Positions 10,005 through 59,537 of a stretch of DNA of 64,000 bases are shown here, one piece after another. Source of the stretch: Salinimicrobium sediminis (GTDB lineage: Bacteria; Bacteroidota; Bacteroidia; Flavobacteriales; Flavobacteriaceae); NCBI RefSeq assembly GCF_900215295.1, contig NZ_OCMF01000002.1, positions 62,001 to 126,000 of the forward strand, in the 5' to 3' direction. Each line of letters opens with the position of its first letter. Position 1 is the first letter of the stretch. Under the pieces are notes generated by a model that saw nothing but the letters and a program-made list of their open reading frames with translations, was not told where the DNA came from and searched no databases. Both the position numbers and the translations under genes were made by a program.

Positions 10005-12050
10005 ATGAAAAACTTTATAAATAATCTTTATAAAAATCAGGACCTGTTTTACAAGGTTTTTCTATTTCTTCTTACCACTTTTCTGATTGTCTACATTTTT
10101 CCCAAAGGAGGTAAATTCAAATATGAAATTCCAAAAGGAAAACCCTGGCAGTATGAAAATTTATATGCTCCCTTCGATTTTGCCATTTTAAAGGCTCCTG
10201 AAGAAATCGCTGCCGAAGAAGGTGAAATTAGGGAAAATCATACCCCGTATTACGACCTGGATCCCGAAGTGGCCGGGGATGTACGTGCCAATCTGGAAGA
10301 GAGGTTTAGCCGAATTTTTCCCGATACTTTAAGGAGATCTGAAAATCGCAGACTCCGTAGTTTTATTGAAAAGATTTCAGCAGAGATATTTGACAGAGGT
10401 TTGCTTCAGGAAATTGTGCCCCGCGAACCACAACAGCTTATTTATTTAAGGGAGGGCAATGAGGTTACCGAGATCACTTACGAAAACATTCTGAAACTTA
10501 ACCAAGTAAGAGACTTTCTTAACCGGAAGATAGATCAGGCGCAGCTTCAAAATTTCAGGGAAGAATTAATAGGGCTTTTCTTTGATTCCATTAAGCCCAA
10601 TGTCAGCTTTAATGAATCCCTTACCCAGAGCGAACTAAAAAGTAAACTTAACCAGATCTCCTACACCCGTGGAAGTGTAGAGCGGGGAACTATTATTGTG
10701 GCCAAAGGAGAGATCGTGGAAGGGGATAAACTGCAAACCCTAAACTCTTTAAAGGCTGAGTATGAGTCCCAGGTTTGGAGTGAAGCCAATTATAATTGGG
10801 TGATCGTAGGATATACCTTGCTGGTGTTTCTTGCTCTGTTGATGTTGATGCTTTTTATTAGGAAATACCGATATGATATTTTTCAGAATAATATTAAAGT
10901 AACCTTTATATACTTTAATGTTGCACTAATGGTGCTGCTTACCGTGCTTGTGATCAACTTCAATGTAGAATATGTTTATGTAGTACCCCTATGTATTCTT
11001 CCCCTTACTATTAAAGGTTTCTTTGATTCCCGGCTTGGTTTGTTTACCCACGTTATAACCGTATTGCTGCTTGGTTTCATCGTGCCCGACAGCTATGAAT
11101 ATATGTTTCTGCAAATTATTGCAGGAATTGTCACTATACTCACTGTTTCAGAATTATACAAAAGAGCAAACCTGTTTATCACAGTGGGACAAATAACCCT
11201 GGTGTACATAGTTTCCTATTTTGCCTTCACTGTAATACAGGAAGGTTCTATATATGAAGTGGAGACTGAAACATTTTTAATGTTTCTTCTTGGTGGCCTG
11301 GCAACTCTTTTTGTGCAGCCATTGATCTATGCTTATGAAAAGCTCTTTGGTTTGATCTCAGACATGTCTCTGCTGGAACTTTCCGATACCAATACCAAAT
11401 TGCTTAAGGAGCTTTCAGACAAAGCTCCGGGGACTTTCCATCATTCCCTTAATGTAGCCAACTTGGCTGAAGCTGCAGCGAATGAGATCAATGCAAATTC
11501 TATGTTGGTTAGGGTAGGGGCGCTTTACCATGATATTGGAAAAATGCAGAATCCCACCTATTTTACCGAAAATCAAACCACTTCTGTTAATTCTCATGAT
11601 GAATTAGCACCCAGGGAAAGTGCACAGATCATTATAGAGCACGTGATCAACGGGATCGAAACAGCTAAAAGGAGAAATCTGCCAGACAGGGTGATAGATT
11701 TTATTCGCACCCATCATGGAACCACAACAGTTTACTACTTCCTGCAAAAGGCTAAAGATGAAGACGGGGAAGTAAATGAAGAAGATTTCAGGTATCCGGG
11801 ACCATTACCTTTTAGTAAGGAAACTGCAATTCTAATGATGTGTGACAGCGTGGAAGCAGCAAGTAGAAGTATTAAAGAACCTACTTCTAAAGTTATCGAT
11901 GATTTTGTCGAAAAGATCATAAATAAGCAGATGAAAGAAGGACAGTTCCTAAATTCTGATATCACATTTATGGAAATTCAGCAGGTGAAAAAGGTCCTAA
12001 AGCGAAAACTGAAGAATATCTACCACCTGCGAATTGAATATCCCGAATAG
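10005..12050 (+). CDS. PgpH-type 7TM-HD domain membrane phosphodiesterase
   Basis: Homologues of this family (7TMR-HDED, PgpH) hydrolyse the second messenger cyclic di-AMP. An N-terminal membrane anchor (about 10-30) precedes an extracytoplasmic domain (about 35-265) and a block of seven membrane segments (about 265-465). A cytoplasmic HD domain follows, with HHSLNVANLAEAA, the metal-binding pair in GALYHDIGKM, then IIEHVINGIE, RTHHGTTTVYYF and MMCDSVEAASRS. I use the ATG at 10005 (681 residues) because a TAnnTTTG element lies just upstream. The substrate is inferred from the family. No cyclic di-AMP synthase gene is in this window. Confidence 0.88.
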   Translation: MKNFINNLYKNQDLFYKVFLFLLTTFLIVYIFPKGGKFKYEIPKGKPWQYENLYAPFDFAILKAPEEIAAEEGEIRENHTPYYDLDPEVAGDVRANLEERFSRIFPDTLRRSENRRLRSFIEKISAEIFDRGLLQEIVPREPQQLIYLREGNEVTEITYENILKLNQVRDFLNRKIDQAQLQNFREELIGLFFDSIKPNVSFNESLTQSELKSKLNQISYTRGSVERGTIIVAKGEIVEGDKLQTLNSLKAEYESQVWSEANYNWVIVGYTLLVFLALLMLMLFIRKYRYDIFQNNIKVTFIYFNVALMVLLTVLVINFNVEYVYVVPLCILPLTIKGFFDSRLGLFTHVITVLLLGFIVPDSYEYMFLQIIAGIVTILTVSELYKRANLFITVGQITLVYIVSYFAFTVIQEGSIYEVETETFLMFLLGGLATLFVQPLIYAYEKLFGLISDMSLLELSDTNTKLLKELSDKAPGTFHHSLNVANLAEAAANEINANSMLVRVGALYHDIGKMQNPTYFTENQTTSVNSHDELAPRESAQIIIEHVINGIETAKRRNLPDRVIDFIRTHHGTTTVYYFLQKAKDEDGEVNEEDFRYPGPLPFSKETAILMMCDSVEAASRSIKEPTSKVIDDFVEKIINKQMKEGQFLNSDITFMEIQQVKKVLKRKLKNIYHLRIEYPE

Positions 12051-55925: not shown

Positions 55926-55951
55926 GCCTTCCGGAAATCTTTCCGGAAGGC
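55926..55951 (+). terminator. Strong terminator after fhs
   Basis: GCCTTCCGGAAA (55926-55937) pairs perfectly with TTTCCGGAAGGC (55940-55951) with only two bases between the arms, followed by TTTTCTTTTT. It separates fhs from the amidoligase operon. Confidence 0.88.
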
Positions 55952-56052
55952 TTTTCTTTTTCCCTGATGAATTCTGTAAATTACATGAAAATAAGGATTA
56001 GAAGAGTCTACGGAATTTTGATTTCGTCTGAAAAAGATGACCTTATTTGATA

Positions 56053-56067
56053 TACATTTGATCAAAT
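56053..56067 (+). promoter_or_regulatory. Promoter -7 element and overlapping palindrome of the amidoligase operon
   Basis: TACATTTG (56053-56060) matches TAnnTTTG exactly, 19 bases before the ATG. The perfect 12-bp palindrome ATTTGATCAAAT (56056-56067) overlaps it and the predicted transcription start, an ideal repressor position. No clear -33 at the standard distance. Confidence 0.5.
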
Positions 56068-56079
56068 TTTATAATCTTA

Positions 56080-57537
56080 ATGAATAAATACATAGTTGTA
56101 AATAAACCTGAAAACTGGAACCTTCCGCTGGAGAATGTGAAGGTGATTTCGGCCAGGGATTATCTTACAAATCCTGAATTTTCCCGACTGAAAAAAGCCA
56201 GGATCTTTAACCTCTGTAAAGATTACTCTTATCAGTCAAAAGGCTATTATGTTTCTCTTTTAGCCGAAGCCCGCGGGCATCTTGCAATTCCTACAGTCAG
56301 AAACCTTGTGGACCTTAGGGAGCCCATCCTGGTAAAGATCGTTTCAGATGAATTTGACGACCTGATCCAAAAAAGCCTGAAAGGCATCAAATCTACTGAA
56401 TTTACCTTAAGCATATACTTTGGGCAGAACGTGGCTCAAAAATATAAGGAGTTGAGTGCCATGTTTCACAGGCATTTCCAGATACCCTTTCTCAGGGTAA
56501 AATTTAGCTATACCAATAAATGGAATTTGAAATCCATCAAAGCGCTTTCTGAAATTGAAATTCCGGAAGAACATAAGCCAAGTATGCATGAATTTGCGGT
56601 GCAGTATTTTGCTAAAAAGCGTTATGACACTCCAAAGAGTGAAAGCTATGAATATGACCTCGCAATTTTAGTACAGGATCACGACCCGGCCCCGCCTAGT
56701 AATCCAAAGGCTTTAAAGAAATTTGCAGAGATTGCCGAAAAAATGAATTTTTATGTGGAATTCATTTCACCAAAGGATCTTTCGCGTCTTCCTGCCTTTG
56801 ATGCTTTGTTCATTCGGCAAAGCACCGAAGTAAACAATGAAGCCTACGCCTTTGCCAGAAAAGCCCAACAGGAGGATATCGCGATAATTGATTATCCTGA
56901 TGCTATCTTAAAGTGCTGCAATAAGGTTTTTATGGCCGAAGCTCTTGAAAACGCCGGCATTCCTACGCCCAAAACTATTATAGTACACAAGGAAAACCGT
57001 AACACGGTGATTGAAAAAACAGGTTTACCGCTTGTGCTTAAATCGCCCGATTCTACTTTTTCCTTCGGAGTTAAAAAAGCTTCCACGGTCGAGGAATATG
57101 AAAAGCTGGTAGGGGAGATGCTCAAAAAGTCAGAATTGGTAATCGCGCAGGAATATACTCCATCAGATTATGACTGGAGAATTGGTATCCTTGATGACAA
57201 GCCTATATTTGCCTGCCGCTATTATATGGCAAAAGGCCATTGGCAGATCTATAACTGGGATGCTAAAAAGAAGGATGACCGCGATGGAAATGCAGATGTT
57301 ATGGCCATCGAAGAAGTGCCTAAAAAGATCATGAATGCTGCCCTTAAATCGGCCAAATTAATGGGAAAAGGTCTTTACGGGATAGATCTGAAGGAAGTAA
57401 ACGGGAAACCGCTGGTCATTGAGATCAATGATAATCCCAACATCGATTTTGGAGTAGAGGACAGGCATTATGGTGATAAGATCTATACTGAAGTTTTAAT
57501 GGCTCTTAAAAACCGGATTGAAAAGAAAACAGAATGA
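56080..57537 (+). CDS. RLAN-domain RimK-type ATP-grasp ligase
   Basis: The 485-residue protein has two parts. The N-terminal part (about 1-195) fits the RimK-like ATP-grasp N-terminal (RLAN) domain: KVISARDYLTNPEFSRLKKA, LCKDYSYQSKGYYVSLLAEA, YFGQNVAQKYKEL. The C-terminal part (about 200-480) is an ATP-grasp with nucleotide-binding Lys in PLVLKSPDSTFSFGVKK, VIAQEYTPSDYDWRIGI and the Mg-binding end EINDNPNIDFG. ATP-grasp ligases of this type add amino acids through acyl phosphates. Its stop overlaps the GCS2 start by four bases (ATGA), so the two are coupled. Substrate unknown. Confidence 0.88.
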   Translation: MNKYIVVNKPENWNLPLENVKVISARDYLTNPEFSRLKKARIFNLCKDYSYQSKGYYVSLLAEARGHLAIPTVRNLVDLREPILVKIVSDEFDDLIQKSLKGIKSTEFTLSIYFGQNVAQKYKELSAMFHRHFQIPFLRVKFSYTNKWNLKSIKALSEIEIPEEHKPSMHEFAVQYFAKKRYDTPKSESYEYDLAILVQDHDPAPPSNPKALKKFAEIAEKMNFYVEFISPKDLSRLPAFDALFIRQSTEVNNEAYAFARKAQQEDIAIIDYPDAILKCCNKVFMAEALENAGIPTPKTIIVHKENRNTVIEKTGLPLVLKSPDSTFSFGVKKASTVEEYEKLVGEMLKKSELVIAQEYTPSDYDWRIGILDDKPIFACRYYMAKGHWQIYNWDAKKKDDRDGNADVMAIEEVPKKIMNAALKSAKLMGKGLYGIDLKEVNGKPLVIEINDNPNIDFGVEDRHYGDKIYTEVLMALKNRIEKKTE

Positions 57538-58760
57538 GTTATCACCTTTTTGAAGTCTACGGAATTGAACTTGAATACATGCTCGTAAGTTCCGGAAATC
57601 TTAAAGTAAAGCCTATTGTTGACAAGCTGCTCACCCGCAAAAACGGCTTCCTGACATCTGATGTTGAGAACGGAAAAATCGAGTGGAGCAATGAGCTAGT
57701 GGCACATGTGGTGGAAATGAAGACCAATGGTCCTACTGCAGATCTGGAAACTTTGGATGAACTGTTTGCTGAAAACGTGCAGGAAATGAACCGGCTGCTT
57801 AAGGAGTTCGGGAGCGAATTATTGCCTACAGCCGCACATCCGCTCATGCATCCTGAAACCGAAATGCAGCTGTGGCAACATAACTACAGCAAGATCTATG
57901 CATTGTATAACCGCATTTTTGACTGCAGAGGCCATGGCTGGAGCAATGTGCAAAGTATGCACATCAATCTGCCATTTTCGGGAGATGCTGAATTTGAAAA
58001 ATTACATGCAGCAATAAGGATCCTGCTTCCTATCATCCCCGGGTTGAGTGCCAGTTCTCCTATTTTTGAAGGAAAAGTAACAGGTTTTAAGGATGCAAGG
58101 ATGCATGTGTACAAAACAAACCAGAAGGAAATCCCGCAAATGACAGGAAAGGTGATCCCGGAACAACTTTTTAGCAGGGAAGAATATTTTGGTGGAATCT
58201 TTGAACCTATAAACCAAGCCATAAAACCTCATGATTCGGAAAACATACTGGATCATCATTTCCTGAATTCCCGAGGTGCTATTGCCCGGTTTGACAGGGG
58301 AGCTATTGAAATAAGGGTGATTGATATACAGGAATGCCCAAAAGCCGATGTTGTTATTGCCGTTCTCATCATTGAAGCCCTGAAACTGTTGGTGAGCGAA
58401 GAACTGGTATCTTTGGAAGATCAAAAAAGCTGGCACGAAAATGACCTTTTTGAGATCTTTGATAAGGTTATCGTTGATGCTGAAGATACAGTGATCAAAA
58501 ATGCTGCTTTTGCCGGTCTTTTCGATCTTGAACCGGGAGTTACAGTCAGGGAATTGTGGGAAAAGATCTATGTTCTGGTAAAAGAAGAGCTTTCTAAAAA
58601 GCACAGGGAGAGTATCGAATTTCTTCTCGAAAATGGCAGCCTCTCCACCCGGATTTTAAAAGCAGTTGGAGACGATTTTTCTGAAGAAAAAATAATTTCA
58701 GTCTACAGGAAGTTGGGAAGGTGTTTGGAGGAAAACAGGTTCTTTGCAATTAACAATTGA
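57534..58760 (+). CDS. GCS2-family carboxylate-amine ligase
   Basis: The 408-residue protein belongs to the glutamate-cysteine ligase type 2 superfamily (YbdK-like). It starts MSYHLFEVYGIELEYMLV, where the E-L-E pair binds metal as in GCS2 enzymes; QSMHINLPF and RGAIEIRVIDIQECPKADV supply the His and Arg/Glu residues of the active site. The expected chemistry is ATP-dependent joining of a carboxylate to an amine, as in gamma-glutamyl bond formation. It is in frame-overlap with the RLAN-RimK gene. Its last codons and stop (TGA 58758-58760) lie inside a CAATTAA seven-base repeat. Substrate unknown; the pair suggests a small peptide product. Confidence 0.87.
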   Translation: MSYHLFEVYGIELEYMLVSSGNLKVKPIVDKLLTRKNGFLTSDVENGKIEWSNELVAHVVEMKTNGPTADLETLDELFAENVQEMNRLLKEFGSELLPTAAHPLMHPETEMQLWQHNYSKIYALYNRIFDCRGHGWSNVQSMHINLPFSGDAEFEKLHAAIRILLPIIPGLSASSPIFEGKVTGFKDARMHVYKTNQKEIPQMTGKVIPEQLFSREEYFGGIFEPINQAIKPHDSENILDHHFLNSRGAIARFDRGAIEIRVIDIQECPKADVVIAVLIIEALKLLVSEELVSLEDQKSWHENDLFEIFDKVIVDAEDTVIKNAAFAGLFDLEPGVTVRELWEKIYVLVKEELSKKHRESIEFLLENGSLSTRILKAVGDDFSEEKIISVYRKLGRCLEENRFFAINN

Positions 58761-58781
58761 CAATTAACAATAAGCAATTTG
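58747..58781 (+). repeat. CAATTAA heptanucleotide array covering the GCS2 stop codon
   Basis: Five units: CAATTAA, CAATTGA, CAATTAA, CAATAAG, CAATTTG. The first two encode the final residues (Ile, Asn, Asn) and stop of the GCS2 protein. Confidence 0.75.
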
Positions 58782-58828
58782 CATGCACCGATTTCCAAAA
58801 ATGGTCAACTCTATTAAGGACTCAACAA

Positions 58829-58863
58829 AACCTTAAACCTTAAACCTTCAACCTTGAACCTAA
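58829..58863 (+). repeat. AACCTTA heptanucleotide array containing the start codon of the amidohydrolase
   Basis: Units are AACCTTA, AACCTTA, AACCTTC, AACCTTG and AACCTAA. The TTG used as start codon (58854) is in the fourth unit. The same seven-base word in another phase is found at 43405-43431. Confidence 0.78.
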
Positions 58864-59537
58864 TCCTTACATGTGAACACGCGGGCAATGAGATCCCTGC
58901 ACACTACGAACATCTTTTTGCCAATGCTCATGATGTCATCCAAACTCATCGGGGATATGATCCCGGGGCATTGGACCTTTTTCGTGAATTATCAGGCTTA
59001 GCTGTTTTTAGTCAGGAGTACATGATAAGCAGGTTACTGGTGGAACCCAACAGAAGCCTGGGGCATCCGCAGTTATTTTCAGAATATACAAACCAGCTTC
59101 CGGAGGCAGAGAAAGAGGAACTGCTGGAGGAATTTTATTTACCCTACAGGCATTACATAGAAAGCCGTATTGGTAATTATATTTCTGCAGGAGGGGAGGT
59201 GCTGCACATTTCTGTACATTCCTTTACTCCCGAACTCAATGGGGAGGTAAGGAATGCTGATGTCGGGTTGTTATTTGACCCTGCAAGAGATGAAGAAGCA
59301 CATTTCTGTAAGAGGTTCCAAAAAAGCCTTTTTAGGCAGGATAAGGAGCTTGAGGTAAAGTTCAATTATCCCTATTTAGGAATAGACGATGGTTTCACCA
59401 CTTATCTGAGACAAAAATTTCCGAACCAATATGTGGGAATCGAGCTGGAAGTGAACCAAAAATTTGTGAAAGACAACAAAATGGAAAAGCGCCTCAAAAA
59501 TGTCATTTTTGAAGCGCTTTTAGAAACTCTTAAGTAA
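58854..59537 (+). CDS. N-formylglutamate amidohydrolase-like hydrolase (HutG family)
   Basis: The 227-residue protein shows the family motifs LTCEHAGNEIP near the N-terminus, QTHRGYDPGAL, RLLVEPNRSLGH, LHISVHSFTPELNG, DVGLLFDPARDE and YVGIELEVNQKF, with His, Asp and Glu residues for a metal-dependent amidase. HutG acts on N-formylglutamate in histidine breakdown, but no hut genes are here; the neighbours are the two amide-forming ligases. I infer a role in trimming or recycling their product. The only start in frame is TTG 58854, within a seven-base repeat; an in-frame TAA lies at 58815. A strong hairpin is built into the last codons. Confidence 0.85.
   Translation: MNLILTCEHAGNEIPAHYEHLFANAHDVIQTHRGYDPGALDLFRELSGLAVFSQEYMISRLLVEPNRSLGHPQLFSEYTNQLPEAEKEELLEEFYLPYRHYIESRIGNYISAGGEVLHISVHSFTPELNGEVRNADVGLLFDPARDEEAHFCKRFQKSLFRQDKELEVKFNYPYLGIDDGFTTYLRQKFPNQYVGIELEVNQKFVKDNKMEKRLKNVIFEALLETLK
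59485..59521. terminator. Hairpin terminator inside the 3' coding end of the amidohydrolase gene
   Basis: AAAAGCGCCTCAAAAATG (59485-59502) and CATTTTTGAAGCGCTTTT (59504-59521) form 18-base arms with one mismatch and a single central T. The structure lies entirely in coding sequence (residues about 211-222) and ends in T residues, as a terminator would. It can also serve the convergent osmC transcript. Confidence 0.75.

Follow-up and report, generated by a model that had tools for sequence, protein, structure and literature searches.

RimK, an ATP-grasp ligase, adds amino acids to ribosomal protein S6. Gene neighbourhoods built around RLAN ligases, with GNAT-papain genes, GCS2 genes and peptidases, were reportedly named by Iyer et al. 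(2009, Mol Biosyst 5:1636). ATP-grasp ligases linked to COOH-NH2 ligases or to a GNAT are proposed often to carry out successive ligation or capping, and the GNAT may cap the product (PMC4431377). N-acetylglutaminylglutamine amide (NAGGN) is made by a peptide ligase that also N-acetylates and is encoded in one operon with a peptidase (PMC8070244). Among the matches listed in the open-licence literature, none was an experimental study of RLAN or RLAN-GCS2 enzymes.

Here we analyse a three-gene operon (RLAN, GCS2 and FGase) in a 64,000-nucleotide stretch of Salinimicrobium sediminis DNA (GCF_900215295.1, contig NZ_OCMF01000002.1, positions 62,001 to 126,000), hereafter the window. The operon is a variant of the neighbourhood class which was reportedly predicted in 2009. 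What the present analysis adds is a count of the linkage between these genes, an alternation between GNAT and GCS2, and separate gene pairs in Fibrobacter. The last two had been missed in the original prediction, an interpretation of the window's sequence, as had a papain-like C39 partner, which is invisible from the window because the genome lacks it. We lean slightly towards the view that the operon encodes a pair of ligases, with one or more hydrolases, for a small N-capped peptide-like molecule.

Gene families and conservation of the operon

The genes lie on the same strand, downstream of a terminator and a Bacteroidota-type -7 element:

56080..57537, plus strand: RLAN / RimK-like ATP-grasp ligase gene; 485 aa, with the RLAN domain at residues 25-170 and ATP-grasp at about residues 279-456 (Pfam match)
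57534..58760, plus strand: GCS2-family (glutamate-cysteine ligase family 2) ligase gene; 408 aa, with an ATGA overlap with the RLAN gene
58761..58853, no strand: spacer between GCS2 and FGase; 93 bases, with AACCTT-type repeats (3 copies of AACCTT)
58854..59537, plus strand: FGase (HutG-like, N-formylglutamate amidohydrolase family) gene; 227 aa, TTG start

Gene content, order and strand are as originally predicted, with coordinates and Pfam matches in agreement, and all three predicted families exceed their Pfam gathering cut-offs. The RLAN domain (PF14401) scored 161.3 bits against a cut-off of 25 (E 1.7e-47) and is followed in the same protein by ATP-grasp domains that are also above cut-off (Dala_Dala_lig_C, 1.8e-12; RimK, 3.9e-10). 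GCS2 (PF04107) scored 105.1 bits against 21 (E 5.8e-30) and FGase (PF05013) 78.4 bits against 28.9 (E 1.2e-21). At the level of narrower families, the RLAN protein is closest to RimK, LysX and MptN, yet it falls under the cut-off of every family listed (e.g., 73.3 vs 143.4 bits for RimK, TIGR00768), and NAGGN synthetase (TIGR03103) is not among the 19 families which it matches at E 0.001. Its solved relatives cover the ATP-grasp half only, from approximately residue 236. The GCS2 protein reaches at best 54.8 vs 371 bits for the NCBIfam glutamate-cysteine ligases and 53.2 vs 176.4 bits for the YbdK subfamily.

Our census covered RLAN and the GCS2 and C39 subfamilies in 395 Bacteroidota genomes. 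The profile searches for the GCS2, C39 and FGase subfamilies scored a limited number of first-look candidates in each genome and could therefore miss distant copies. RLAN has matches in 44 genomes, in 43 of them above cut-off; the remaining case (L153), a 110-aa frame with stops, was excluded. The window's own family (f1) has RLAN in 4 of 41 sampled genomes, and the window genome has exactly one RLAN match. The GCS2 subfamily occurs in 30 of the 395 genomes and by coordinates lies directly beside RLAN in 30/30, while the papain-like C39 subfamily occurs in 26 and lies beside RLAN in 26/26. The original prediction had proposed a count of neighbourhood conservation as a check, and this count puts RLAN-GCS2 linkage far beyond chance.

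FGase is present in 21 of the 43 RLAN genomes, always inside the operon (21/21). A smaller draw of 277 genomes has the FGase subfamily in 18, with 16 copies in the operon and two orphans (L170, 7476-8189; L171, 7589-8302) in RLAN-free genomes of one genus. The most common gene set in the RLAN genomes is C39, RLAN, GCS2 and FGase (17), and a further 9 genomes have C39, RLAN and GCS2. RLAN, GCS2 and FGase without C39 is found in 4, all Flavobacteriaceae and including the window. The other 13 have a GNAT fused or adjacent to RLAN and no GCS2; the GNAT domain was confirmed by Pfam in 5 of these 13 genomes and assigned in the rest by similarity to those five.

A set of 80 named loci shows how tightly the genes are packed. 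All three genes are present in 73, FGase is unmatched in 6, and one lacks both GCS2 and FGase; four of these seven incomplete loci (L046, L061, L085, L110) end no more than 0.5 kb past the last gene found, and the other three are from Fibrobacter. The predicted ATGA coupling of the first two genes is present at 57534-57537, and RLAN and GCS2 are spaced by -11 to +5 bases in 73/73 three-gene loci (Flavobacteriaceae). Measured from the GCS2 stop, the FGase match begins at a distance of zero or less in 65 of these 73. The window is an exception, with FGase 93 bases from GCS2 and thus not tightly coupled, which corrects the earlier picture. AACCTT-type repeats here split genes that overlap in most relatives, and in S. 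nanhaiense (L031) the spacer is 467 bases with 42 copies (about 10682-11148). By RLAN identity, the closest named loci are those of S. nanhaiense (96%) and S. terrae (91%). FGase starts with TTG or GTG in 9 of 10 other loci compared.

GCS2, C39 and FGase all look active, because their putative catalytic residues are invariant. In GCS2 (30 sequences aligned) these are G10, E12, E14, H143, E259 and R261, and in YbdK (1r8g), a weak match, a GIELE motif and an E-R motif occupy the corresponding positions. In C39 (20 of the 26 sequences) they are Q9, C15, H171 and D189, the residue set expected of a papain-like enzyme. FGase (20 sequences) keeps C7-E8-H9, H122 and an N-PY-G-DG motif, and its conserved residues are common to the solved relative 2odf.

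Alternating partners and the Fibrobacter pairs

RLAN genomes in the census have either GCS2 (30/43) or a GNAT at RLAN (13/43), and none has both. Genus g132 and family f24 each hold the GNAT type and the GCS2 type in different genomes. The top-scoring family for the GNAT partner is RimI (85.2 bits for L157 against a cut-off of 86.4, 76.7 for L152 and 64.3 for L139), and the GNAT-DUF3335 proteins of L152 and L157 also match TIGR03103 weakly (38.1 and 34.4 vs 569 bits). One genome (G179) has its GCS2 in two overlapping pieces (C1:2375278-2376482, in L111), the result of a frameshift or a sequencing error.

The same alternatives appear outside Bacteroidota. A plasmid collection contained 11 records with at least 80% of RLAN, and no close plasmid-borne copy was matched. 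RLAN adjoins a GNAT-DUF3335 (papain-like) fusion in 8 (7 Azospirillum and 1 Tistrella, i.e., 8/8 records with that fusion), a divergent GNAT gene (PF00583, 1.3e-10) in one from Aeromonas, GCS2 and FGase in one from Legionella adelaidensis (L155, gene order RLAN-GCS2-FGase, RLAN identity 45%), and neither partner in one from P. aeruginosa. The L. adelaidensis record is 9 kb and labelled as a plasmid, yet genes on it include fur, bamE and members of the RnfH and RatA families, so that it may come from a chromosome.

A tree of 55 RLAN proteins, in which Aeromonas was entered as “lone” and several rows form long branches, requires 3 changes for the GNAT label and 3 for the GCS2 label (bootstrap ranges 3-5 and 2-3, respectively). 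The alternation is therefore a clean pattern made up of few independent events.

Fibrobacter divides the genes differently. RLAN and GCS2 adjoin in 3/3 sufficiently long loci (L107-L109), and C39 and FGase are paired on a separate contig in 3 of 4 draft genomes, with C39 at a contig end in the fourth. In one of these genomes (G395), the C39-FGase pair is more than 10 kb from both contig ends. The ligases travel as one pair and the hydrolases as another, and this is the clearest functional clue that we have.

Proposed function and rival explanations

If our preferred reading is right, the operon would provide the core enzymes of a small non-ribosomal peptide pathway, one half of which would “make” the product and the other “unmake” it. 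Its two ATP-dependent ligases would act successively. GCS2 would couple the amine of an amino acid or a comparable substrate to glutamate, whose gamma-carboxylate is the expected reacting group by family precedent. The RLAN/ATP-grasp enzyme, via an acyl-phosphate, would extend a carboxylate with one more amino acid or amine. The outcome would be a short, N-capped, peptide-like molecule. In the sister systems, a GNAT acetyltransferase stands where GCS2 would, so there the cap would be acetyl rather than glutamyl. The hydrolases (FGase here; FGase, C39 or both in most other GCS2-type Bacteroidota) would cleave either the cap or the peptide, in trimming or turnover. What we infer is the sequence in which the enzymes act, that the cap is glutamyl, that the product is small and what the hydrolases do; the gamma-glutamyl chemistry of GCS2 is suggested by its family membership. 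The original prediction, that the operon makes and trims a peptide-like metabolite, thus holds up in its outline, as two ligases and an amide hydrolase fit it, while its small, gamma-glutamyl-type product keeps the status of a guess.

A broader version, which we put forward tentatively and which may well be wrong, is that one ancestral peptide pathway has GNAT and GCS2 as exchangeable modules for N-capping. RLAN would form the same kind of peptide bond throughout, the cap would be acetyl or gamma-glutamyl depending on the branch, and the papain-like enzyme and FGase would be a pair that reads and removes the cap. The product would then be a new family of short peptides with caps, used within the cells of many bacteria, marine ones included.

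Several observations weigh against the ligase-pair reading. The RimI-like score of the GNAT leans towards protein substrates, as RimI is a protein N-terminal acetyltransferase. Of the 30 GCS2 genomes, 9 have no FGase, and in 2 of 277 genomes (G081 and G151, one genus) FGase occurs without RLAN and with no ligase seen in its flanks. C39 is absent from the window genome, and in the P. aeruginosa record RLAN is flanked by neither GNAT nor GCS2. A single GCS2 clade was not rejected (approximately unbiased test, p 0.151), so one swap is possible and the alternation may rest on a single event.

The strongest rival, in our judgement improbable but worth keeping in view, is protein tagging: the RimK-like ligase would add amino acids to a protein, a RimI-like GNAT or GCS2 would alter an N-terminus, and C39 or FGase would strip the tag. 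The best family scores of both the ATP-grasp protein (RimK, LysX, MptN) and the GNAT (RimI) suit this idea. So does the precedent that RimK is opposed by a dedicated protease, RimB, which trims its product (PMC12239564). However, the RLAN protein scores only about half of the RimK cut-off, and GCS2 enzymes are, by family precedent, small-molecule ligases. Across 44 neighbourhoods, the next gene clusters (unannotated) reach only 14, 10 and 10 loci, far under the spread of RLAN, GCS2, C39 and FGase, so no target gene stands out. We consider detoxification or salvage of amines or amino acids less probable again. There, GCS2 would glutamylate an amine, FGase would free the glutamate and the ATP-grasp enzyme would sit on a side branch. 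A ligase with an amide hydrolase is the logic of gamma-glutamylated amine pathways, and the FGase family is named for cleaving N-formylglutamate, but FGase is lacking in some GCS2 genomes (the 9/30 above) while RLAN is constant. The other neighbours in the window are FTHFS, OsmC, alcohol-dehydrogenase-like and glucan-branching-like genes, and neighbours vary by genus.

The remaining alternatives seem to us very unlikely. A glutathione-like tripeptide, put together by GCS2 and the ATP-grasp ligase as a replacement thiol, would follow the enzyme logic of glutathione synthesis. In addition, plant glutamate-cysteine ligase is matched by GCS2 over 141-218, and an OsmC gene adjoins the operon. Nevertheless, GCS2 is well under all the glutamate-cysteine ligase cut-offs listed, and BshC (bacillithiol synthase) is present in 384 of the 395 genomes and in 43/43 RLAN genomes, so we rejected this explanation. 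At marginally longer odds still stands maturation of a ribosomally synthesized and post-translationally modified peptide (RiPP), in which C39 would remove a leader and the two ligases would modify the precursor. C39 and ATP-grasp enzymes each occur in RiPP loci (PMC8939145), but there is scant room in the operon, where genes overlap in most loci, and no fitting precursor was found in the 1.3-kb flanks of 110 loci. Those flanks held 14 small open reading frame (ORF) families in at least 10 loci. Nearly all copies of 13 lie within an ORF of at least 110 aa, and the fourteenth (11 loci) straddles, on the opposite strand, the start of an FKBP-like gene; a RiPP precursor in the operon or flanks was rejected on these grounds. 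Least credible of all is histidine breakdown with FGase at the HutG step. FGase is HutG-like, and the window genome has two urocanase genes, but among the RLAN genomes (34/43 with urocanase) urocanase accompanies FGase in 17 of 21 and is present in 17 of the 22 that have no such FGase, so there is no association, and FGase sits with ligases in 21/21, so this too was rejected. The two urocanase genes are at C8:433383-434105 and C6:308270-308992 (G000), and the other 42 genomes have none or one. Neither of the two known routes, histidine breakdown or thiol replacement, explains the genes, in agreement with the original prediction.

If the ligase-pair reading is correct, a metabolite family has its enzymes in about a tenth of sampled Bacteroidota (43/395), in Fibrobacter and in some Pseudomonadota, and those enzymes can be tested. 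The GNAT/GCS2 alternation would predict an acetyl cap vs a glutamyl cap between related strains, and the Fibrobacter pairs would suggest which enzymes build the product and which dismantle it.

Local context and likeness to known systems

Three features precede the operon:

55926..55960, plus strand: intrinsic terminator after the FTHFS gene; a pair of 12-base arms separated by 2 bases, T-rich tail
56053..56060, plus strand: -7 promoter element TACATTTG, Bacteroidota-type; conserved in 67/80 named loci
56056..56067, no strand: perfect 12-base palindrome ATTTGATCAAAT; not conserved, 1/80 named loci

The terminator arms (55926-55937 and 55940-55951) are complementary at 12/12 positions and followed by a T run, which bears out the strong terminator of the original prediction. 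Its -7 element is likewise conserved: 67 of the 80 named loci carry TAnnTTTG, the Bacteroidota -7 consensus, 18-45 bases ahead of the RLAN start, whereas random placement within those loci yields it 276 times in 16,000 (1.7%). The palindrome had been read as a sign of repression, which was an overstatement. When the upstream regions of the 80 named loci were compared, its sole other case was S. nanhaiense (L031); it therefore gives no support for a conserved repressor site, and we rejected it as a conserved operator.

FTHFS lies upstream of the operon and a convergent OsmC gene downstream, and alcohol-dehydrogenase-like and glucan-branching-like genes (both named by eye) are also neighbours. 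An 18-base inverted repeat (94%) at 59485-59521, inside the 3' end of FGase, is terminator-like on the minus strand, after the OsmC gene. Neighbours beyond the operon vary between genera. Among loci whose neighbours were compared, FTHFS is beside the operon only in Salinimicrobium, so we set aside a formate link. Close upstream of RLAN, 33 of the 80 named loci have a divergent M19 membrane dipeptidase gene (Pfam on two; e.g., L039 6551-7837 and L042 6574-7860, minus strand), which is absent from the window locus. No tRNA was found beside the operon in 6 loci examined. The P. aeruginosa RLAN gene (L156) is presumably PA1345, by gene counting. A CpxR regulatory lead for that gene led nowhere: as far as Table 1 of PMC12802237 goes, PA1345 has a CpxR motif by sequence only and is absent from DNA affinity purification sequencing.

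The NAGGN operon (asnO-ngg-peptidase) resembles ours in joining N-capping to a peptide ligase and an operon peptidase (PMC8070244). It differs in that the window operon has no asparagine-synthase gene, its RLAN protein has no TIGR03103 match at the E-value given above, and its cap would be glutamyl. Glutathione synthesis, with glutamate-cysteine ligase and glutathione synthetase, likewise has a GCS2-type step followed by an ATP-grasp ligase, whereas the window operon has scores far under those family cut-offs, linked hydrolases and a bacillithiol synthase in the genome. RimK/RimB also pairs a RimK-like ATP-grasp ligase with a hydrolase, but the window operon has an RLAN domain, a second ligase (GCS2) and unrelated hydrolases; no rpsF link was noticed in the flanks of operon loci, where no dedicated rpsF search was made. 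HutG shares family PF05013 and the solved relative 2odf with our FGase, which differs in being tied to ligases wherever an RLAN genome has it and in having no urocanase association. The closest likeness is to the RLAN/GCS2/GNAT-papain neighbourhoods of Iyer et al. (2009). Elsewhere in that class, RLAN is reportedly linked to a GNAT fused to papain-like DUF3335, while the window has FGase as its third gene, no GNAT match in its locus (L154) and no C39 of this subfamily in its genome. The linkage of an RLAN-ATP-grasp ligase to GCS2, which reportedly also belongs to the class, is found in 30 of the 43 RLAN genomes, including that of the window.

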